Shown: one piece after another, positions 22,969 to 43,328 of the stretch
Position numbering within the stretch: the first letter of the stretch is position 1
Layout of the letters: the number at the start of each line of letters is the position of its first letter
Source: Bacteroidia bacterium
Lineage (GTDB): Bacteria; Bacteroidota; Bacteroidia; JADZBD01
DNA: 64,000 nucleotides
Direction of reading: 5' to 3'
Assembly (NCBI GenBank): GCA_020852255.1
Contig: JADZBD010000004.1
Coordinates: 62,001 to 126,000 of the forward strand
Notes under the pieces: generated by a model
What the model was told of the DNA's origin: nothing
The model's database searches: none
Seen by the model: the letters and a program-made list of their open reading frames with translations, nothing else
Program-made: the position numbers and the translations under genes

Positions 22969-24516
22969 TCAGGCCGGCTGTTGTTCGGCAACCACATCCC
23001 GGAAGCGCCGGCGGGCAGTTTTACTCTTTGCCCAGGACAGAATATCAAAGTACTCAAAAACCGTACGCTCGAAAGGGTCCGCTTTCAATTGTTCCAGCGC
23101 TAATACAAAATCATGGTAAAGTTCTGTATTCTGACTTCCGTTGCCATCCTTCATCAGGCGGTTCATAAACTCAAGGAACACCGTCTCAAATTTATATACC
23201 CGCTTGCGGGTTTTCAGATAACGTTGCGCTGACTTGTAGGAATACGGGATGAGATCGTCATTGCCCAGCTCCAGATGTATCACCAGATCCATAATTCTGG
23301 CAAAACAATGAATATCCTGACTCTCTGCAATGTCCTGATCATTCAGCAGGGTGTTCACAAACCGAAGTGCCTTGTTATACTCTTCAATGCCAAAATAAGA
23401 AACGGCCATATTTAGTAAAAAATAGCCCCGGCGCGTAGGATTGATTTTCCCCCGATATTTTTCCAGTCCTTCCTCAATTTTCGGAATCAATGCAATGGAT
23501 TTTTCAAATTCTCCCATTGAGTTGTGCAATGTAATGGCGATACTGTTGGCAGAAGAAAAAAGTTTTATCTCCAAATCCTCGTTGTGGGAAAGATCGAACG
23601 TTTCCGGAACCGCATTCAGCTTGGCCAGATTGGCAAATGCTTCCGGGTAATGTTTCAGCTGTGTTCCGACATAGATGGCATTGGTAAGAATAGAAAAATA
23701 AATATTGGGTTCTTCCCTGAAAATATCCGGATTCTGCTCGATCAGGGCGATATTCTTCTTCAGATGCTCATAACAGGCCGGATGATCGTCTATCCCAAAA
23801 TAATAGGCCGAAAAAATATGATGAAACAGGTACTTGGTCTCCTGCGTAAGCGCCTGCCCTTCCGATTGAAGGAGGGGGTGAGAAATAATCGCACGAAACT
23901 TTTTGAGATCTTCCGTGCTGCGTGCCTTTCCCGCCTTATGAAGCAGCATGAAAAAGCGGCTCTTGATATTCCAGAAATCGTTGAAGTTTTTGATCTTCCG
24001 GGCAATGTCCTCGTCCTCACCCATAAGGTTATTGATATCATCGTCTGTTTTTCCCGAATAATTTTCGGTCTCAATCAGGCGCTTCTCCCAAAGACGGATC
24101 GCCGGCAGGGACTCATACCGCTCATATTTTAATGCCGTTTTTCTGGCACCCGACAGTACACGGGCACACTGGTCATACAGCGTTTTCTTAAATAGTATCT
24201 CTGCGTAATGAAGATCACGTTTCAGCCGTGCGTCAATAGAACTCTGTGTATGGAATGCATCCAGACTCCGGAGTACACTTTCATAGAGCCGGTTTTTCGC
24301 AATAGAAAAATTATTCAGGACGGGATCATGCTCCAGTTTTTCAAAAATGGCCGCTTCATCATATATGTTTTGCTCTGAAATGAGATCAAAAAGCAGGGCG
24401 TATTTGTTTTCCTCCGCTGAAACATGGCGTGATGCGAATAACTTGAAGTTCCGCTTTTCAGCTTTGGTAAGGGAACGGATAAGTTTGTGCAGATGATCGC
24501 TTGCTTTGTTAGACAT
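22969..24516 (-). CDS. Large alpha-helical cytoplasmic protein, function unknown
   Basis: 515 residues, no signal peptide or membrane segment, almost entirely helical with TPR-like pairs (for example FFMLLHKAGKARSTEDLKKFRAI and YFLLNMAVSYFGIEEYNKALRFV). It starts MSNKASDHLHKLIRSLTKAEKRNFKLFA, a pattern I associate with a Bacteroidota-specific family of unknown role. A helical-repeat scaffold is likely. A 481-bp non-coding stretch separates it from the divergent gene at 24998. Confidence 0.75.
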   Translation of the reverse strand: MSNKASDHLHKLIRSLTKAEKRNFKLFASRHVSAEENKYALLFDLISEQNIYDEAAIFEKLEHDPVLNNFSIAKNRLYESVLRSLDAFHTQSSIDARLKRDLHYAEILFKKTLYDQCARVLSGARKTALKYERYESLPAIRLWEKRLIETENYSGKTDDDINNLMGEDEDIARKIKNFNDFWNIKSRFFMLLHKAGKARSTEDLKKFRAIISHPLLQSEGQALTQETKYLFHHIFSAYYFGIDDHPACYEHLKKNIALIEQNPDIFREEPNIYFSILTNAIYVGTQLKHYPEAFANLAKLNAVPETFDLSHNEDLEIKLFSSANSIAITLHNSMGEFEKSIALIPKIEEGLEKYRGKINPTRRGYFLLNMAVSYFGIEEYNKALRFVNTLLNDQDIAESQDIHCFARIMDLVIHLELGNDDLIPYSYKSAQRYLKTRKRVYKFETVFLEFMNRLMKDGNGSQNTELYHDFVLALEQLKADPFERTVFEYFDILSWAKSKTARRRFRDVVAEQQPA

Positions 24517-24860: not shown

Positions 24861-24893
24861 CTTGGAAGCCGGAGAGGACGGGTAATAGATTTG
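24861..24893 (+). promoter_or_regulatory. Promoter of the 24998 gene
   Basis: CTTG at 24861-24864, exactly 21 nt, then TAGATTTG at 24886-24893. The expected start near 24,898 gives a leader of about 100 nt that carries the structured element at 24,912. Confidence 0.65.
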
Positions 24894-24911
24894 AAGTAAG
24901 AGTCGCAGAAA

Positions 24912-24955
24912 GGTTCACCGGAAACAATATGGGGATGTTGTTAAACCGGTGAATC
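24912..24955 (+). ncRNA. Structured leader RNA element A (interrupted hairpin with GGGG loop)
   Basis: The outer 8-bp stem TTCACCGG (24914-24921) / CCGGTGAA (24946-24953) can be extended by a G-T and a G-C pair. After a 1/3-nt internal loop, an inner 8-bp stem AACAATAT (24923-24930) / ATGTTGTT (24935-24942, one T-G wobble) closes a GGGG tetraloop. A perfect palindrome CGAGC-G-GCTCG follows at 24955-24965. GGGGATGTT (24931-24939) can instead pair with AACATCCTC at 24970-24978 (9 pairs, one wobble), just before the start codon. The same architecture recurs at 39702-39743. Function unknown. Confidence 0.6.
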
Positions 24956-24997
24956 GAGCGGCTCGCCTGAACATCCTCCCAACTAATTAATTGCAAT

Positions 24998-26680
24998 ATG
25001 AAAATCTTAACGACATTGCTTTCGTGCGTAGCTCTAAGCGGCTTTTCACAATCCTTTGCTACCGACTATCTTGATATTGCCAATATTAAGGCCATGTTTG
25101 GAAGCTCGGGCGTTCTTTTCTGGAATGGCTCTACCTATTCTTTCGAGGTACCCAAAGACAGCGGGAAGCATACCTTGTTTGCCGGCAATCTCTGGATGGG
25201 CGGTATTGATGCACAAGGCGCTCTTCATGTAGCAGCACAAACCTACCGGCAAATGGGCGCTGACTATTTTCAGGGACCAGTAATGAATAATTCAGCCTAT
25301 TCCCCCTCTCAGGATCTGCTGTGGGATAAAGTATGGAAGATCAATAAAAGTATGATAGATAGTTTTAAGCTGGGATTATATACAAACTTACCTCCGGTGC
25401 TGCAAAACTGGCCCGGAAACGGAAATGTTTCTCTCGGTCAGGCTGCTCAACTGGCACCGTACAAAGACGTCAACGGAGATGGAATTTACAATCCTTCCAA
25501 CGGTGATTACCCCTGCATCAAAGGAGACCAGGCAGTATATTTTATTTTTAATGACGACAGAAATAACCATACCGAAAGTAACGGCCAGAAGATTAAGGTT
25601 GAGGTACACGGAATGGCATATGCGTTTAACGATACAGTCTATCCGCATCTGAAAAATACGGTATTTCTAAACTACCGAATCATTAACAGATCCGCTCAGC
25701 CTTACTATTCCTTTTATATCGGAATGTGGAATGACTTTGACATAGGAGATTCTTCTGACGACTTCATAGGCAGCGATGTAAAAGGGAATTACTTCTTCGG
25801 ATATAATGGAGACAATAATGATGGGACCAGTATCGGATACGGGGCGTCGCCACCGGCTCAGGGAACCGTGTTTCTGAAAGGCCCCGGAGCAGATTTAGGT
25901 GATGGTCTGGACAACAATCACAACTGCCTCATTGATGAACCATTCGAACAATGTATGATGAACTATTTCACTTACTATAACAATGATTTCTCCGCAATTG
26001 GGAATCCAACATCGGATACTGCATACTATCGCTTCACCCACGGGATCTGGAAGGATGGATCGAATATGACCTATGGAGGAAATGCCTACGGGGGCGTCAC
26101 CGTCTGTTCCTACATGTTTCCGGGAAGTTCCGATCAATCCATCGGCTGGGGAACCGGCGGATCCTGCACGAATCCATCCGTACAGCCTCCCTGGGATGAA
26201 ACCTCCAGCGGAAACATGCCTGCTGACCGGAGAGGAATTGGCTCCTGCGGGCCCTTTACCTTCAACGCGGGAGAAGAATTATGTCTTGATTTCGCTTTTG
26301 TATTTGCCCGAGGTCCCAATGGTAATCTTTCGAACATAACGCTACTTTCTTCGGCCGTTGATACCATTCGCTATTTCTATACAACTAACAACCTTGACAC
26401 CTGCGGATGCTATAGTGGTCCTCTTTCAGTCGTTGAGACCGACCAGCCCATTCAGTTGCGATTGGCCCCGAATCCTGCCGGTGATCTATTAACAATTGAA
26501 ACAGATCATGTGCTCTCTTCGCTCCTTTACATTTATGATCTCCAGGGAAATATCCTTTTGAAAAAAACAACAGAGACTCCGGTAACCAATATTGATATCC
26601 GCCACCTCTCACCGGGTGTGTATTTCATCAGCATTCAAAACAGCAAAGGCACCGTTGCAAAGAAATTTATCAAAGAATGA
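24998..26680 (+). CDS. Secreted T9SS protein with Asp-rich calcium-type repeats
   Basis: 560 residues. A signal peptide (MKILTTLLSCVALSGFSQS) is followed by a domain starting DIANIKAMFGSSGVLFWNG and FEVPKDSGKHTLFAGNLWMGGID, a pattern common in large Bacteroidota surface proteins. Asp/Asn-rich loops (DVNGDGIYNPSNGDYP, GDGLDNNHNCLIDEP) look calcium-binding. The T9SS sorting domain ends GVYFISIQNSKGTVAKKFI. Its long leader carries RNA element A. It converges on nosY with an 11-bp gap and is unlikely to be functionally linked to it. Confidence 0.85.
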   Translation: MKILTTLLSCVALSGFSQSFATDYLDIANIKAMFGSSGVLFWNGSTYSFEVPKDSGKHTLFAGNLWMGGIDAQGALHVAAQTYRQMGADYFQGPVMNNSAYSPSQDLLWDKVWKINKSMIDSFKLGLYTNLPPVLQNWPGNGNVSLGQAAQLAPYKDVNGDGIYNPSNGDYPCIKGDQAVYFIFNDDRNNHTESNGQKIKVEVHGMAYAFNDTVYPHLKNTVFLNYRIINRSAQPYYSFYIGMWNDFDIGDSSDDFIGSDVKGNYFFGYNGDNNDGTSIGYGASPPAQGTVFLKGPGADLGDGLDNNHNCLIDEPFEQCMMNYFTYYNNDFSAIGNPTSDTAYYRFTHGIWKDGSNMTYGGNAYGGVTVCSYMFPGSSDQSIGWGTGGSCTNPSVQPPWDETSSGNMPADRRGIGSCGPFTFNAGEELCLDFAFVFARGPNGNLSNITLLSSAVDTIRYFYTTNNLDTCGCYSGPLSVVETDQPIQLRLAPNPAGDLLTIETDHVLSSLLYIYDLQGNILLKKTTETPVTNIDIRHLSPGVYFISIQNSKGTVAKKFIKE

Positions 26681-35681: not shown

Positions 35682-35719
35682 CTGATTCTGCACTATCTTT
35701 ACTTTTATTACAGAATCAG
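35682..35719 (+). promoter_or_regulatory. Inverted repeat flanking the -7 box of the propeller kinase gene
   Basis: CTGATTCTG (35682-35690) and CAGAATCAG (35711-35719) are perfect 9-bp inverted arms 20 nt apart. The -7 box TATCTTTA (35694-35701) sits between them. A dimeric regulator bound here would cover the promoter. RNA hairpin formation is an alternative, though the start site lies inside it. Confidence 0.5.
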
Positions 35720-35727
35720 TGCACACA

Positions 35728-38676
35728 ATGCTTTCGGGGGTTCATAACGTATACCGGTGTGTCATCTGCGCATTTTGCATTTGCGCCTGGCTTCCTGTTA
35801 CCGGACAATCCTTTTACTTCCGGTACTATAACGTAAATGACGGAATGCCCTTTGCGCAAGTGAATGCCATCCATCAGGGGATGCAAGGATATCTCTGGAC
35901 CGGTGCCTACGGCGGACTAAGTCGTTTCGACGGAAGAAAATTTGTTAATTACAGCCCGAAGAACGGACTCATCACTTACTCTGTAAATTCCATCACAGCA
36001 GATGATGCCGATAATATCTGGATCGCCACGATTGCAGGAGTAAGCCGTTTTAGCAACAACCTGTTCAAAAATTATACGAAAGACCAAGGCCTTCCCAACG
36101 TATATGTGAATGTAATCATAAAGGATCAGAAAAACAGGATATGGGCCGGAACGCAGGGGGGGCTTGCCTATTTCGACGGAAAACGGTTTGTGACCTACTC
36201 TGATAAACTCCTCAGAGCAAATGCCCGTATTCTTTCTCTTCATGTGAACGGAAGCGGAGAGTTGTGGGTAGGCACCGGCCAAGGGGTTTTTCGTATCAAC
36301 ACGCTCACTTTAACAACGGAGGAAATGTTCAGAATGTCCGACGGCCTTTGTGATTCGGTTATTACCGCCATTACTTCGGATCAGACCGGAAGTATCTATC
36401 TCGGGACACCAAATGGTATCAGCATTCTTCGCGACGGAAAAATTCAGTCTATTCCTGCCGCCCCGGGCTTTCCGGACAACTCGGTTTCATCACTTGTTTA
36501 CGACCCGAGAGGAGGTGTTTGGATAGGAACCGCAGAAGGGCTGTGCCGGTTAGAAAAGAACATCTTTATCCCGTATCACATTGAAGGACCTTTTGGCGCC
36601 AACCGGATCCTTTCGCTTTTTACGGATCGAGAAGGAAATCTCTGGGTGGGAACATCCAATGGCTTGTATAAACACTCCGGTGCATTGTTCTCTACCTGGT
36701 CGGTTAAAGATGGCTTATCCGGCGCGTATGTTTTTCCTATTCGTAGAGATGCACGAGGCGCGCTCTGGATCGGTTCCGATGATGGGTTGAACTGTCTGGA
36801 AAATGGTAAACTCAGGGTGTATAAAAAACAAGACGGACTGGCCGGTAATGCGGTGAATGACCTTGCGTTGGGGACAGATGGTAAAATATATGCGGGAACC
36901 AATCAGGGTCTTAGTGTGTACAATGGAACCGGGTTCCGGAATTATTTCGGAAAAAAAGACGGGTTGATCAGTGATTCGGTGAGTGCCGTCCGGTTTGACC
37001 ATCTGGGCCGTCTCTGGTTAGGTGGTCACTGCGGGTACACATTAATGGAAAATGGAAAATTCTCACGGTATCCGCTGCCGGTTAAAAAAAACCGTTTCGA
37101 TATCTGGTTCCTGTTCGAAGATTCTAAAAACCGGATGTGGATCGGAACATTTCAGGGCGGATTGTTCATGTACGACGGTGCGATACATGACATGGCTGAA
37201 GAGCTTAGTATTTCAGACGAATCCTGTCTCGCGGTAAGTGAGGACGAAAACGGAAATATCTGGATCGGTTCACTGCGCGGGCTGTACATGTGGGATGGAA
37301 AGAGTATCCGGCATATTGACGAATCGAAAGGGCTGAATTCCGATCTGATATATGTTCTGGGTGCTGATAAGGATCCGGCCTATCTGTGGATCGGCACCAA
37401 CCAGGGTATGAATAAACTGAACCTCAAAAAATACCTGGAGGATGGTAAAGTGGAGATCACCGATTACGGAAAGGAAGACGGATTCATTTTCAGCGAAACC
37501 AACAGCAACGGATTCTGGAAAGATGAGGACGGGAGTATCTGGTACGGTACGGTGGGAGGAGTGATCCGCTACGATCCGAAATATTTGCCGCAGAAGGAAC
37601 TGGAGCCGATCACACATATTACATCTGTACAATTATTCTATAAGGATACAGCGCTGACGGCTAATTCCGAACTATCCTACGATCAGAATCACCTCGCATT
37701 CAGCTTTATCGGCATCCATTTTGCGAATCCTTCAAAAGTGAGATACCGCTACCGTTTGCACGGTTTTGAAACAGACTGGTCACCGGTAACGGCCATGAAC
37801 GCGGCCAATTACAGCAGTCTGCCCCCGGGCGAATACCGCTTTGAAGTGATGAGCCGAAACAATAACGGACTCTGGAATACATCACCAGTAACTTATTCCT
37901 TTACCATTCTTTCACCCTGGTGGAAAACATTATGGTTCCAGACTTCCCTCATCCTCTCCGTACTTCTGGCAGGTTACTCTGCTATACGTTTCCGGATCCG
38001 GCAGGTTCGACAGCGTGAACAAAACAGAACACGCCTGGCCGCGATGGAACTCAAAGCCCTGCGAGCTCAGATGAATCCTCATTTTATTTTCAATGCACTG
38101 AATTCCATTCAGCATTTCATCATGCACAGTAATGAGGAAGGCGCCACAAAGTATCTGAACAAATTCGCGCGTCTCATCCGCACGATCCTGAATAATTCCG
38201 AACGCTCTACTGTAACGCTGGAAGAAGAAGTAGAATCGCTACGTTTGTATCTTGACCTGGAGGTGCTGCGCTTTGAGAATAAATTTACCTGGGAAATTGT
38301 TGTAGACCCTGAGCTGAATCTCGACTTCTATGAAATTCCCACCATGCTTATCCAGCCGTATGTGGAAAATGCTATTTTGCACGGACTGGTTCCCAAACCC
38401 ACCATAGGGCACCTGCGCATTGAACTCCGCCTGGATGAACACCATATAGTCTGCGTCATCACCGATGACGGTATTGGAAGAAAAGCATCCCGAACGCTGA
38501 AAGAGCGCTCCATGAAACAAAAACATCAGAGCTTCGGCATGAAGATCACCCACGATCGCCTGGAGCTTCTCAACAATGTTCAGCAATCCAACCTGAGCGT
38601 TAATATTACCGACCTGGAAAATGATTTCGGAGAAGCTACCGGAACACGGGTGGAGATATTCACGCCAATTGCCTAA
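35728..38676 (+). CDS. Propeller-type sensor histidine kinase (LytS-like)
   Basis: 982 residues from ATG 35728 (a GTG at 35719 is possible). A signal segment (CVICAFCICAWLPVTGQ) is followed by two seven-bladed propellers of repeats such as DNIWIATIAGVSRF (to about 620), a Y_Y_Y domain (about 640-730) and one membrane segment (about 735-755). The cytoplasmic His_kinase region has MNPHFIFNALNSIQHF at 782-797, with His785 as phospho-acceptor, then an ATPase domain (QPYVENAILHGL, DDGIG). It senses an external ligand in the periplasm and signals to the LytTR regulator 9 bp downstream. Confidence 0.92.
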   Translation: MLSGVHNVYRCVICAFCICAWLPVTGQSFYFRYYNVNDGMPFAQVNAIHQGMQGYLWTGAYGGLSRFDGRKFVNYSPKNGLITYSVNSITADDADNIWIATIAGVSRFSNNLFKNYTKDQGLPNVYVNVIIKDQKNRIWAGTQGGLAYFDGKRFVTYSDKLLRANARILSLHVNGSGELWVGTGQGVFRINTLTLTTEEMFRMSDGLCDSVITAITSDQTGSIYLGTPNGISILRDGKIQSIPAAPGFPDNSVSSLVYDPRGGVWIGTAEGLCRLEKNIFIPYHIEGPFGANRILSLFTDREGNLWVGTSNGLYKHSGALFSTWSVKDGLSGAYVFPIRRDARGALWIGSDDGLNCLENGKLRVYKKQDGLAGNAVNDLALGTDGKIYAGTNQGLSVYNGTGFRNYFGKKDGLISDSVSAVRFDHLGRLWLGGHCGYTLMENGKFSRYPLPVKKNRFDIWFLFEDSKNRMWIGTFQGGLFMYDGAIHDMAEELSISDESCLAVSEDENGNIWIGSLRGLYMWDGKSIRHIDESKGLNSDLIYVLGADKDPAYLWIGTNQGMNKLNLKKYLEDGKVEITDYGKEDGFIFSETNSNGFWKDEDGSIWYGTVGGVIRYDPKYLPQKELEPITHITSVQLFYKDTALTANSELSYDQNHLAFSFIGIHFANPSKVRYRYRLHGFETDWSPVTAMNAANYSSLPPGEYRFEVMSRNNNGLWNTSPVTYSFTILSPWWKTLWFQTSLILSVLLAGYSAIRFRIRQVRQREQNRTRLAAMELKALRAQMNPHFIFNALNSIQHFIMHSNEEGATKYLNKFARLIRTILNNSERSTVTLEEEVESLRLYLDLEVLRFENKFTWEIVVDPELNLDFYEIPTMLIQPYVENAILHGLVPKPTIGHLRIELRLDEHHIVCVITDDGIGRKASRTLKERSMKQKHQSFGMKITHDRLELLNNVQQSNLSVNITDLENDFGEATGTRVEIFTPIA

Positions 38677-38685
38677 CTTTAACGC

Positions 38686-39435
38686 ATGATCCGTACCGTT
38701 GTTGTTGAAGACGAAAAAAAATCGCGGGAGGTAATCCTCTCTCTGATACAGAAATATTGCCCTGAACTGCATGTAACCGGGGAAGCATCCTCCGTTAAAG
38801 AAGCCGTGGAAGTGATTAAAAAAGAAAAACCTGAACTGGTATTCATGGACATTCAGCTGGCCGACGGCACCGGATTTGATATACTTCAGCAGGTACAGGG
38901 AATTGATTTCTACCTCATTTTTGCAACTGCCTTCGACCAGTACGCCATCAAAGCCATCAAATATTCGGCGATTGATTACCTGCTCAAGCCGATTGATGGC
39001 GACGAGTTGAAAAATGCCGTAAAGAAGGTCATTGAAAAAAAGAGCAGCTCCTCAAATGTGGATAACCTTAGATTTCTTATCAGTAATCTTAAAAAAGGAG
39101 AAGACGAGTTTTCGCGAATTACCCTTCCCACCGGCAATGCTTACGAGATTGTAAATATCAAAGATATTATCCGCTGCGAGGCCTCCGAATCCTACACGTA
39201 TTTCTTCCTGTCCGGTAAGAGAAAATTTCTGGTCACACAAGGTCTGAAGCATTATGAAGATATTTTGCCCGGAGACGCTTTCATTCGAGTACATCATTCC
39301 CACCTGATCAATATGAATCACGTTGTCCGTTATCTGAAAGAAGACGGAGGATACGCTGTAATGAGCGACGATTCCCGTATTGAGATCTCCCGCCGTAAAC
39401 GGGAAGCATTCCTGGAAAGGCTTAATAAGGCCTGA
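38686..39435 (+). CDS. LytTR response regulator
   Basis: 249 residues. Receiver domain with acidic pocket EDE (9-10), phospho-acceptor Asp55 (LVFMDIQLADG), Thr81 and Lys101 (LLKPIDG). A LytTR DNA-binding domain occupies about residues 145-245 (GLKHYEDILPGDAFIRVHHSHLINM). It is the output partner of the preceding kinase; target promoters are not known but may include its own or the neighbouring leader at 39,436. Confidence 0.95.
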   Translation: MIRTVVVEDEKKSREVILSLIQKYCPELHVTGEASSVKEAVEVIKKEKPELVFMDIQLADGTGFDILQQVQGIDFYLIFATAFDQYAIKAIKYSAIDYLLKPIDGDELKNAVKKVIEKKSSSSNVDNLRFLISNLKKGEDEFSRITLPTGNAYEIVNIKDIIRCEASESYTYFFLSGKRKFLVTQGLKHYEDILPGDAFIRVHHSHLINMNHVVRYLKEDGGYAVMSDDSRIEISRRKREAFLERLNKA

Positions 39436-39701: not shown

Positions 39702-39743
39702 TTGGCCGGCCACACATGGGGATGTGGTTAACAGGCCGGCCAA
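39702..39743 (+). ncRNA. Structured leader RNA element B (interrupted hairpin with GGGG loop)
   Basis: Outer 10-bp stem TTGGCCGGCC (39702-39711) / GGCCGGCCAA (39734-39743). After a 1/7-nt asymmetric internal loop, the inner stem CACAT (39713-39717) / ATGTG (39722-39726) closes a GGGG tetraloop. The core ATGGGGATGTGGTTAA matches element A at 15 of 16 positions, while the outer stem differs fully but still pairs. CATC-g-CCCC at 39758-39766 can pair with the loop. T6 follows at 39752-39757. It lies 50 nt before the start of the small membrane protein gene. Confidence 0.6.
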
Positions 39744-39792: not shown

Positions 39793-40005
39793 ATGGAACA
39801 GAAAGTAAGAAACGCGTACGATGACTCAAGGAGTCGCCGTATTGCAAGACACGAGAGACACATCATGAGGGTGAAAGCCTTGAAGGAAGGGCATTACCGT
39901 TCTACTGAAAAGAACGCTCATGACGGTGTAGACACCATTATCGGGATCCTTGGCGTAGCCACAGCAGGACTCGTAATGTATGCCGTTCTCAATGTGATCT
40001 TCTGA
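39793..40005 (+). CDS. Small membrane protein, 70 residues
   Basis: A basic, His/Arg-rich N-terminal half (about residues 1-40) precedes one membrane segment (GVDTIIGILGVATAGLVMYAVLNVIF). The N-in positive charges suggest the N-terminus stays in the cytoplasm. It is bracketed by element B upstream and a strong terminator downstream, so it is probably a single-gene transcript. Function unknown. Small proteins of this shape often bind larger membrane complexes. Confidence 0.65.
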   Translation: MEQKVRNAYDDSRSRRIARHERHIMRVKALKEGHYRSTEKNAHDGVDTIIGILGVATAGLVMYAVLNVIF

Positions 40006-40009
40006 ACAT

Positions 40010-40077
40010 TGATGGCAGGGAGGACAGGCTGGTAGGTTTAAGGGGATGTTGCTTATCATGCCGGTCCTCCCGCATCA
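40010..40077 (+). other. Large hairpin in the 3' UTR of the small membrane protein gene
   Basis: TGATG (40010-40014) / CATCA (40073-40077) and GGGAGGAC (40018-40025) / GTCCTCCC (40064-40071) form a 13-bp interrupted stem. The inner GGC / GCC pair leads to a loop that contains GGGGATGTTG. It lies between the stop codon and the terminator. A role in mRNA stability or as a 3'-UTR-derived RNA is possible. Confidence 0.45.
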
Positions 40078-40084
40078 GTAACAC

Positions 40085-40117
40085 AGACCGAGGTACAAGC
40101 GTTACCTCGGTCTTTTT
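40085..40117 (+). terminator. Intrinsic terminator
   Basis: An 11-bp stem AGACCGAGGTA / TACCTCGGTCT with a 7-nt loop, followed by T5. It ends the small membrane protein transcript. Confidence 0.9.
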
Positions 40118-40910
40118 ATTTTTTCCCAAAACACTTTCGAAGAAATCCCCTGATCCCTTTCTCTGAGGTAACCGGACTTTCAAAGAAACCCATGTGCCCG
40201 GCATTTTCCAGCAACAACACCTCCCCTTCACGGCATTTTTTAGCCTGAGCCTGTATTGAAGTACACGGAATAATCACATCCTTTTTGCCTGCGATAAAAA
40301 GAACGGGGAATTCCAGCTCCGGAAGCATAGCGATATAATCCGTACGGATCTTCATTCCCTCCAGGGCGGCAACGATGGCCTGCGGCGAGGTATTTCCGGC
40401 GATTCTTTTCAGCTGTTCGAGTGGCTCTGTCATCAGCGGTAGATTTTCTGGAGCAAACAACCGCTCGAGAAGCTGAAAAACGAACGCCCTTTTATCTGCC
40501 TTAACTGCCGCAATCGCCCTGTCGCGATCGGTCCTCTTTTCCGGAGCATCTGCAGCAGCCGTAGAATGAAACAGGATCAACCCACTCAGATGATTCCTGA
40601 ACCGTGCGGCAAAAGCCAGCGCTACATAACCTCCCATACTGTGCCCGCAGATCACATATTTCCTCAAACTCAGTTCATCCAACAGCATTTTCACGTGGTC
40701 TGCCATGGCATCCATGGAATGCACATATCCGATGCACTCTGAATCTCCGAAGCCGGGTAAATCTATCGTGATAATGCGGTAAGAACCTGATAATGCCTTC
40801 GTCAGCGGCTCCCATATCACCCTTGATTCCGGAAAACCATGTAAAAAGACCAGCACCCGCCCCTTTCCTGAGTCAGAATAGCCGATTTTTCTACCAAAAA
40901 GTTCGATCAT
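40116..40910 (-). CDS. Alpha/beta hydrolase
   Basis: 264 residues from ATG 40910 (MIELFGRKIGYSDSG); the ATG 12 codons upstream adds no conserved sequence. Oxyanion region FLHGFPES, nucleophile elbow GHSMGG (catalytic Ser), an Asp in GKKDVIIP and His in ENAGHMGFFESP complete the triad. Cytoplasmic esterase or lipase-like enzyme; substrate unknown. Divergent from the TPR-caspase gene. Confidence 0.88.
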   Translation of the reverse strand: MIELFGRKIGYSDSGKGRVLVFLHGFPESRVIWEPLTKALSGSYRIITIDLPGFGDSECIGYVHSMDAMADHVKMLLDELSLRKYVICGHSMGGYVALAFAARFRNHLSGLILFHSTAAADAPEKRTDRDRAIAAVKADKRAFVFQLLERLFAPENLPLMTEPLEQLKRIAGNTSPQAIVAALEGMKIRTDYIAMLPELEFPVLFIAGKKDVIIPCTSIQAQAKKCREGEVLLLENAGHMGFFESPVTSEKGIRGFLRKCFGKK

Positions 40911-40952
40911 TACGGGTATAATTCTCCTGCTGTAATTACGGTACAATTTATG

Positions 40953-40960
40953 TATTTTTG
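40953..40960 (+). promoter_or_regulatory. -7 box TATTTTTG of the TPR-caspase operon
   Basis: TAnnTTTG match 22 nt before ATG 40983. No good -33 box at 21 nt. Confidence 0.4.
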
Positions 40961-40982
40961 GTCGATAAAACCATCCCGTTCC

Positions 40983-43328
40983 ATGCGATCTGTTTTACGC
41001 TCCTTCCTCTGCTCGCTGATTCTGCTGAGTGCCACCCTGTCCGTTCAGGCTCAGACGGCCAAGAAATACTATTCTGCCGGAAAGAAATTTATGGAAATGG
41101 GTAATTGCCAGGAGGCTGTGAACAATTTCACGAAAGCCCTCGAAATGGATCCCCAGATGGAAGATGTGTATATCTCCCGTGCTGAATGTTATGAAAAGAT
41201 GGACAAAAAGACGGAGGCGGCGGAGGATTACCGCCTGGCAACCACCTTTGCCCCAAAAGAGGAAAAATACTTCTATAACGCCGGCAGGCTTTATTTCGAA
41301 ATCCGTCAGTTCGAAAAAGCAGACGAAATGCTTAAGAAAGCCCTCTCCCTTAACAAGAACTATCTTGATGCAATAGAGTACAGTATTTACACCTTGCTCC
41401 AGCTGAAAAAATTCACACAGGCCCTTACGCTGGCGGAACAGGCAGTAGATCTTAAGAAGAGTGGACTCACCTATCTGAACAATGCCATTGTTCTTGACAG
41501 TATGCAACTGTATGCAGAAGCAGAAAAAAAGTATAAAGACGCCAAATATTACGATTCTAAACTGGTGATGGCCTATGTGGGATTAAGTAACACTCAGGTT
41601 AAATTAAAAAAGCTGGATGATGCGATGAAAACCTGCCAGACAGGAATGGAAAAATTTGTTCCTGCCCGGAAAGAGATTCTTTTCGCCCGAAGTCAGGTGT
41701 ATGCCGCCAAAGGAGATTATCTTGCCGCTGTAAACGATCTTACACAAGTCATCCTGGCCGATGATAAAAGTGTAATCGCCTTTATGACACGTGGTGATTA
41801 CTACCTTAAACTGGCCATGTATCCCAATGCTGTAAACGATTACACCAAGGTGATTCTGATCCAGGAAAAAAACGCGAACGCTTATTTCAAGCGCGCTCAG
41901 GCCTACGAGCAGATGCAGAATTACAAGGAAGCGGTGAAGGATTATAATAAGATCAAGGAGATTGCGCCAAACGATCAAAATGCCATGAATTATCTTGTGG
42001 CAGCAAAGCAAAAACTCTTTGAGCTCAACAGGGAAAAGAATAAGCCTGAGATCGTCATGATCAGTCCGAAGGCCGACAAAAAATTTGTAGTTAAGATCGG
42101 AGGAGATAAAAAAGAAATGATGGTGAAGGGTACCATCACCGATGAAAGCAATATCAAAAGCATTACCGTGAACGGTAAGGAAGCCAATTTCCGGAACGAT
42201 ACCAACGTTACTGATTTCATTGTAACAATGGATGTCACAAAGCTCGAACAGCTGACTGTAATTGTTACGGATGTTTATAACAACGTACTTGAACAGCTGT
42301 TCGCCGTTGAATACACTGAAACCGGGAAGCCGATTGTTGCCCTGGTTGCTCCCTACACTTCATTCGACAAAGAAATTTATCTCGACAACTCAAACTCGGA
42401 ACTTTATATCGAAGGTCAGGTAAAAGACGAAAGCAAGATCGAATCCATTCGCATCGAAGGACAGAATGCAAGCTTTGACCCTTCCGCACAGGATCCCAAA
42501 TTTTCCGCCACCATCAGCATCTCCAATAAAATGAAGATCACCGTTTGGGTAAAAGATGTCTACGGGAATGAAACCATTGAAGATTTTAAACTGAACCGCG
42601 AAGGTGCCACCATCTCTGCCAATAACCCCATGGGTGTAACCTGGCTCATCTTCATCGAGAACAGCAATTACAAAAACTTCGCCTCGCTCGACGGCCCCTC
42701 AAAGGATGTTACACTAATGAAAACGGCCCTGGCCAACTATAAATTCAGCAATATTGTACATAAAAAAGATATGACCAAAGCCGAGTTGGATAAATTCCTG
42801 TCCATTGAGCTTCGTGACCTGATCAAGGCCAATAAGGTCAATTCACTGATGATCTGGTATGCAGGGCATGGAAAATTCCAGAATAATACCGGATACTGGA
42901 TTCCGGTAGACGCTAAGGTTGATGAGGAATATTCCTATTTCAGTATTGCCACGCTTAAATCCTATATGCAGTCCTACTCACTCGTTCATACCCTGGTGGT
43001 AACGGATGCCTGCGAATCAGGACCTACCTTCCTGGTTGCCATGCGGGCGGGCACTGAACAGAAGATGTGCGACGACTGGACAAAAACAAAATTCAAGTCC
43101 GCTCAGGTATTCACTTCCGCCGGATTTGAGCTGGCAGCCGATAATTCCCAGTTTACCAAAACCTTCGCAAACACCCTGATTAATAATCCCGACGGGTGTA
43201 TCGCTATAGACAAGATCGTTGAAAAGGTGAAACTCGCTGTAAAAGCGAAAGGTATGCAGGAACCCAAATTCGGTAAGATTTCCGGACTGGAAGATGAAGG
43301 GGGCACTTTCTTCTTTATGAAAAAATAA
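40983..43328 (+). CDS. Secreted TPR-Ig-caspase (C14) protein
   Basis: 781 residues from ATG 40983; a signal peptide (LCSLILLSATLSVQAQ) follows. TPR array in about residues 25-340, then two Ig-like beta domains (about 350-540) of a repeated type (VKGTITDESNIKSITVNG, IEGQVKDESKIESIRIEG). A caspase-like domain has catalytic His629 (WYAGHGKF) and Cys677 (VTDACESG). It should work outside the inner membrane; substrate unknown. Only 18 bp separate it from the propeller-SpoIIE phosphatase, so they are probably co-transcribed. Confidence 0.87.
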   Translation: MRSVLRSFLCSLILLSATLSVQAQTAKKYYSAGKKFMEMGNCQEAVNNFTKALEMDPQMEDVYISRAECYEKMDKKTEAAEDYRLATTFAPKEEKYFYNAGRLYFEIRQFEKADEMLKKALSLNKNYLDAIEYSIYTLLQLKKFTQALTLAEQAVDLKKSGLTYLNNAIVLDSMQLYAEAEKKYKDAKYYDSKLVMAYVGLSNTQVKLKKLDDAMKTCQTGMEKFVPARKEILFARSQVYAAKGDYLAAVNDLTQVILADDKSVIAFMTRGDYYLKLAMYPNAVNDYTKVILIQEKNANAYFKRAQAYEQMQNYKEAVKDYNKIKEIAPNDQNAMNYLVAAKQKLFELNREKNKPEIVMISPKADKKFVVKIGGDKKEMMVKGTITDESNIKSITVNGKEANFRNDTNVTDFIVTMDVTKLEQLTVIVTDVYNNVLEQLFAVEYTETGKPIVALVAPYTSFDKEIYLDNSNSELYIEGQVKDESKIESIRIEGQNASFDPSAQDPKFSATISISNKMKITVWVKDVYGNETIEDFKLNREGATISANNPMGVTWLIFIENSNYKNFASLDGPSKDVTLMKTALANYKFSNIVHKKDMTKAELDKFLSIELRDLIKANKVNSLMIWYAGHGKFQNNTGYWIPVDAKVDEEYSYFSIATLKSYMQSYSLVHTLVVTDACESGPTFLVAMRAGTEQKMCDDWTKTKFKSAQVFTSAGFELAADNSQFTKTFANTLINNPDGCIAIDKIVEKVKLAVKAKGMQEPKFGKISGLEDEGGTFFFMKK

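Follow-up and report, generated by a model that had tools for sequence, protein, structure and literature searches.

Two hairpins that share a loop but not a stem lie far apart in a 64,000-nt stretch of a Bacteroidia genome (hereafter the window), one ahead of a T9SS protein gene and the other beside a two-component locus, which raises the question of whether they are copies of one functional RNA and, if so, what such an RNA would do. The original prediction had answered the first part in the affirmative, pointing to a conserved loop held by changing stems. Reading and folding the sequence confirmed both hairpins, here called copies A and B, and added a third, copy C. The three copies and the features around them are as follows.

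22969-24516, minus strand: BT2802-like gene, 515 aa (NF058569 at 198 bits, cut-off 550), divergent from copy A
24886-24893, plus strand: -7 box-like TAGATTTG, ~19 nt 5' of the copy A stem, matching TAnnTTTG
24900-24964, plus strand: copy A with its outer helix P0, GAGUCGC (24900-24906) with GCGGCUC (24958-24964), from the fold
24912-24955, plus strand: element copy A, 10-bp stem P1 and loop, core GGGGATGTTG at 24931-24940
24998-26680, plus strand: T9SS type A sorting domain protein, 560 aa (Por_Secre_tail, PF18962 / TIGR04183), downstream of copy A
35719-38676, plus strand: Reg_prop/Y_Y_Y/His_kinase sensor of the two-component pair beside copy B
38686-39435, plus strand: LytTR response regulator, upstream of copy B, with orthologs in other genomes
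39702-39743, plus strand: element copy B, 10-bp stem, core GGGGATGTGG at 39718-39727
39793-40005, plus strand: small basic membrane-type protein, 70 aa, after copy B, with orthologs at the same site in other genomes
40018-40071, plus strand: element copy C, in the 3' region of the small gene, core GGGGATGTTG at 40042-40051
40085-40126, plus strand: intrinsic-terminator-like hairpin with a U run, directly 3' of copy C (read and folded)

As predicted, the outer stems of A (GGUUCACCGG/CCGGUGAAUC, 24912-24921 with 24946-24955, 10 bp including one G-U) and B (UUGGCCGGCC/GGCCGGCCAA, 39702-39711 with 39734-39743, also 10 bp) are wholly different in sequence yet pair throughout, and the 16-nt core ATGGGGATGTnGTTAA is identical at 15 of its 16 positions. 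Copy C, with outer stem GGGAGGACaGGC/GCCgGUCCUCCC and core GGGGAUGUUGCUUA, lies 3' of its gene rather than ahead of it; farther along, at 40950-43328, is a TPR protein whose C-terminal part holds a caspase-like (Peptidase_C14) domain. When the flanks were dinucleotide-shuffled, an equally good stem formed around the core in 0/300 cases for A, 3/300 for B and 3/300 for C, and a covariance model built from the three copies (R1) returned only these above noise in their own genome. A strong 11-bp hairpin holding GGGGATGTTGTTT between rpoD and a GAPDH gene of the same genome (L020, 1481-1531) was rejected as chance or an unrelated terminator, its core being antisense to both genes and its score only 15 bits.

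Direct DNA similarity to the B region gave no match outside the own genome among 60 relatives, so synteny and the covariance model were used instead. The original prediction had called for such a model, and in related genomes it recovered syntenic copies: a 41.6-bit match in the sole genome of the same family (G001) has a LytTR regulator on one side and a small membrane-type protein on the other, like B, and a 25.5-bit match in G192 is divergent from an ortholog of the BT2802-like gene, like A. Orthologs of this gene were also collected by protein similarity and their upstream regions scanned for the core alone, with no hairpin required. The core, with at most one mismatch, was present ~320-480 nt upstream in nine of the 28 regions, the own genome's included, against ~2 of 28 expected by chance (a rough count from the pattern), and in all nine it sits within long hairpins whose stem sequences are mostly widely different. 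A search from the LytTR side placed the element after the regulator in eight genomes (G000, G001, G110, G142, G172, G192, G245 and G334) and after a regulator paralog in G354, and a model built from 23 copies (R3) matched 23 of the 36 genomes of genus g22, many of the matches lying at one or other of these two sites. Altogether, 40 copies were inspected from 27 genomes of families f1, f16, f19, f21 and f38, all of one class.

The decisive evidence for an RNA comes from the stem. In an alignment of 23 copies, 21 of them distinct, 97.6% of the cells of outer stem P1 are paired among the distinct copies and all four Watson-Crick types occur at each of its 8 pairs, and in a first round on 13 copies 99.0% of cells were paired, with two-sided changes at all 8 pairs and a covariation score of 1.152 against 0.225 when shuffled and at most 0.204 with the partner slid; these P1 figures are inflated, as the model behind some rows gives credit for pairing and the register of the stem was chosen by hand. 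The A-like rows upstream of BT2802-like orthologs were located by the core, with pairing playing no part. Compensatory changes thus keep the stem across homologs, as in a structured regulatory RNA, and the paired stem changes foreseen by the original prediction are borne out. Many copies carry the further outer helix P0 listed above for A. Under symmetric scoring, the stems hold 16 G-U against 4 A-C pairs (16 against 2 without a doubtful copy from G197, L048, which was kept), an excess indicating that the functional molecule is RNA of the plus strand, the strand that reads GGGGAUGUUG and on which the downstream genes are likewise in sense.

The loop behaves in the opposite manner to the stem, being asymmetric and fixed in sequence as A-rich-(A/U/C)GGGGAUGU(U/G)(G/C/A). 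Across the 23 rows the core GGGGAUGU is nearly invariant, with the columns GGGAUGU invariant and the first G nearly so; the two bases 3' of it are UG, GG, GC or UA, and the A-rich 5' side reads ACAU, AAAC, CAAA, UUAA or CUAA. An inner ACAU/AUGU helix is paired in 68.6% of cells and shows two-sided changes at only one of five pairs, which indicates that AUGU is kept as sequence and not by covariation. The compensatory A-T to C-G change originally proposed for this inner stem is real between A and B, but the column is unpaired in 12 of the 21 distinct copies.

The copies occupy two recurrent genomic homes. At the A-site the element and a BT2802-family gene point away from each other, and the element mostly precedes a gene for a T9SS or exported protein, an arrangement found in G000, G001, G019, G077, G110, G142, G172, G188, G192, G334 and G354; the stems are mostly unrelated between genomes and the downstream exported or sensor genes differ. 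The downstream gene is of T9SS type in G000, G001, G142 and G077, encodes an exported protein that carries YVTIPD or TVTIPD close to its beginning in G188, G334 and G354, a repeat-type exported protein in G192, and a Reg_prop-like sensor in G172 and probably in G110; at the G019 A-site no downstream gene on the same strand was recognised. The T9SS gene after the G001 element (L062) is apparently frameshifted shortly after its signal peptide, through assembly error or gene decay. The BT2802-like protein has seven or more homologs in several genomes, and its gene marks the A-site, many paralogs elsewhere not being known to have the element; some genomes with a BT2802-like ortholog lack the element. 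The promoter proposed ahead of A could likewise be recognised in TAGATTTG. The Bacteroidota -7 box consensus is TAnnTTTG, and transcription from the window's box would be predicted to start at copy A's outer helix, near 24900. Similar boxes lie close 5' of several A-site copies, among them TACATTTG ahead of the G192 copy.

At the B-site the order is LytTR regulator, element and small membrane protein of ~42-70 aa, as seen in G000, G001, G142, G172, G192, G245, G334 and many genomes of g22. The small protein has a basic N-terminus and one hydrophobic segment, with the consensus RKGHxYHxDGIGTITILLAIATVxFIFYSIY, and is encoded directly after the LytTR regulator in families f1, f21 and f38; members are the window's 39793-40005, L041 1607-1816, L115, L119, L120, L122 and L152-L172. 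It has no match in Pfam or NCBIfam, so the family, as judged from its sequences, is probably undescribed and often left unannotated. Scanned against the genome contigs, the small protein gave no match, and the T9SS protein gave three distant relatives, all without the element.

The two homes are joined in G172, where a single cluster runs element, sensor, regulator, element, small protein and T9SS-like protein, and in G142, G077 and G110 the A-site copy and the regulator are ~3-5 kb apart. G245 has four copies on one strand within ~6 kb, and the two that were examined closely lie ahead of a gene for an exported protein and one for a sorting-domain-like protein; in G127 the hairpin is ~25 nt upstream of a lipoprotein-like gene. 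The spacing from hairpin to start codon is typically tens of bases, up to ~150 nt. Near element copies there are also short proteins of ~70-80 aa that look like a T9SS sorting domain standing alone (L098, L147, L122); their Por_Secre_tail match is weak and they have no obvious signal peptide.

True copies are intergenic and syntenic, the location to be expected of a structured regulatory RNA and the non-random placement that the original prediction required. Model matches inside ORFs (most of L097, L100-L107 and L109; L140-L146) were regarded as false. In a phylum-wide draw, searched with strict filters that may miss weak copies, all seven matches in other genomes fall inside ORFs, and the element therefore appears confined to part of this class.

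At the level of sequence, covariation establishes the structure, and the comparisons further establish its sense strand, its conserved synteny and its place ahead of start codons; from the promoter boxes and spacing we infer that it is part of the downstream mRNA. A freely varying stem and a fixed loop ahead of several genes of related role favour a leader RNA bound by a trans-acting factor. Our main reading, to which we give a probability of about 0.5, is that the element is a cis-acting leader whose loop is recognised by such a factor, protein or small RNA, co-regulating the genes that carry it. The leader, ~45-100 nt long, would be made as the first part of the mRNA, those of the A-site encoding T9SS or exported proteins and that of the B-site the small membrane protein beside the LytTR two-component system; in some genomes it may lead the sensor kinase mRNA itself. 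P1, a long stem whose sequence is free to vary and which P0 often accompanies, would serve as scaffold and the loop as recognition site. The factor, probably a protein that binds RNA or, failing that, a small RNA, would attach there and change the stability or translation of all mRNAs that carry the element. In this way the two-component locus would be joined with the small membrane protein and the exported proteins in one post-transcriptional regulon. Against this reading count copy C, placed after its gene, the genomes in which a BT2802-like ortholog stands without the element, and the A-site copies of G019 and G172 discussed below. More tentatively, and at well below even odds, this may be an undescribed RNA regulon of Bacteroidota in which an RNA-binding regulator recognising the GGGGAUGUUG loop couples the LytTR locus, the new small membrane protein family and the T9SS cargo genes at the post-transcriptional level.

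Several other readings share part of this evidence. Each copy might instead be its own short transcript, a free-standing small RNA whose exposed GGGGAUGUUG loop is a seed for target mRNAs; exposed G-rich loops are typical of such seeds, and the -7 boxes close 5' of several A-site copies suit this account. It is favoured at two sites in particular, G019, with its missing downstream gene, and G172, where the A-site copy is ~200 nt upstream of the kinase start and, by eye, has a promoter box ahead of it and, in the stretch leading to the kinase gene, a terminator-like hairpin and another -7 box. In most copies, however, only some tens of bases, free of any terminator, separate the hairpin from a start codon, and the sites track certain types of downstream gene (exported proteins, the small protein), which makes small RNAs an unlikely explanation, if the next most likely after the leader. 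The loop might pair just before its own start codon, hiding or freeing it in a self-contained and perhaps ligand-responsive switch, and the complementarity this requires is real in A itself (partner GAACAUCCUCC, -13.0 kcal/mol, p ~0.02 by shuffling) and in a few others, namely G192 and G354 with UGCGUCCCCG (p 0.01 or less), G142 (p 0.015) and G001_B (p 0.06). In most copies tested, however, the pairing is absent (p >0.2), and the partner varies in position and sequence. The loop is also short for a metabolite aptamer, with one variable stem and one conserved loop in place of the several conserved helices and expression platform of a riboswitch, and a switch is rather improbable as the function of the element. 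The loop also holds an AUG, in GGGGAUG, that is accessible and invariant in 40/40 copies, often with another AUG ahead of it in the same frame (AUGGGGAUG), and might start a leader peptide (often MGML...) that couples to the main gene or draws ribosomes away from it. The predicted peptides nevertheless run from 2 to >40 codons and differ freely between families, with neither sequence nor stop position conserved across them, unlike those of a leader-peptide attenuator, and the invariant U after the AUG followed by a variable base (UUG, UGG, UGC, UUA) defies codon constraint, so that an upstream ORF is highly improbable.

Two readings remain. Copies cluster near the LytTR regulator gene and long inverted repeats occur at mobile-element ends, as might be expected of an operator, cruciform or mobile-element end that merely resembles an RNA hairpin; this is scarcely credible when pairing is kept while the stem sequence is free, G-U pairs included and outnumbering A-C 16 to 4, and when the own genome has no scattered copies beyond the three. 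An ordinary intrinsic terminator or read-through attenuator is suggested by the T-run (TTTTTT) a few bases after copy B and by those after the G142_B and G110_A2 hairpins, but most copies have no U-run directly after the hairpin, which indicates that the element is usually not a terminator. A-site copies, moreover, have no upstream gene on the same strand to terminate, and conservation of a 10-nt loop is foreign to terminators; we regard this explanation as very remote.

A leader RNA bound by a trans-acting factor would be of interest in a phylum where post-transcriptional control is poorly charted and which, to our knowledge, is largely without Shine-Dalgarno use and usually without Hfq and CsrA. 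Being compact, backed by decisive covariation and settled in two conserved genomic homes with a definite set of genes, the element could serve as bait for its regulator; it also draws attention to a family of small membrane proteins that is unannotated and linked to a two-component system.

Among known RNAs, the closest in sequence are the hairpins bound by CsrA/RsmA, whose SELEX consensus is RUACARGGAUGU. Like the element, they present GGAUGU in a hairpin, often with ACA...UGU flanks as in ACAUGGGGAUGU, in the leaders of several mRNAs; the element differs in having four G rather than two and in losing the ACA side in many copies (AAAC, CAAA, UUAA). CsrA (PF02599) was found in none of the 60 relatives searched, own genome included, by a search that finds the CsrA of E. 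coli, B. subtilis and T. maritima in control, and a Csr/Rsm target RNA was rejected on that ground. The original prediction had also suggested a scan with Rfam models, Flavo-1 and Bacteroidales-1 among them; Rfam 15 has no family above its gathering threshold for the element, and none at E up to 1 for the loci, the window giving only chance-level matches (E above 1) to unrelated families. The non-subscription literature on the core sequence and on Bacteroidota leader RNAs yielded no earlier description, and the sequence comparisons thus leave the element as a new candidate cis-regulatory structured RNA. It differs in this lack of any Rfam match from Flavo-1, Bacteroidales-1 and Bacteroides-1, candidate structured RNA motifs of Bacteroidetes (PMC2864571, Weinberg 2010), and resembles them in belonging to the same phylum and in having been found by covariation. 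Compared with ribosomal-protein leaders, the element stands ahead of exported-protein genes, of the gene for a small membrane protein and perhaps of a sensor kinase gene, and its partner is only postulated; what it shares with these and other protein-binding leaders (PMC7247131) is a 5' leader hairpin with a conserved loop on a free stem and, as proposed here, one factor serving several mRNAs.
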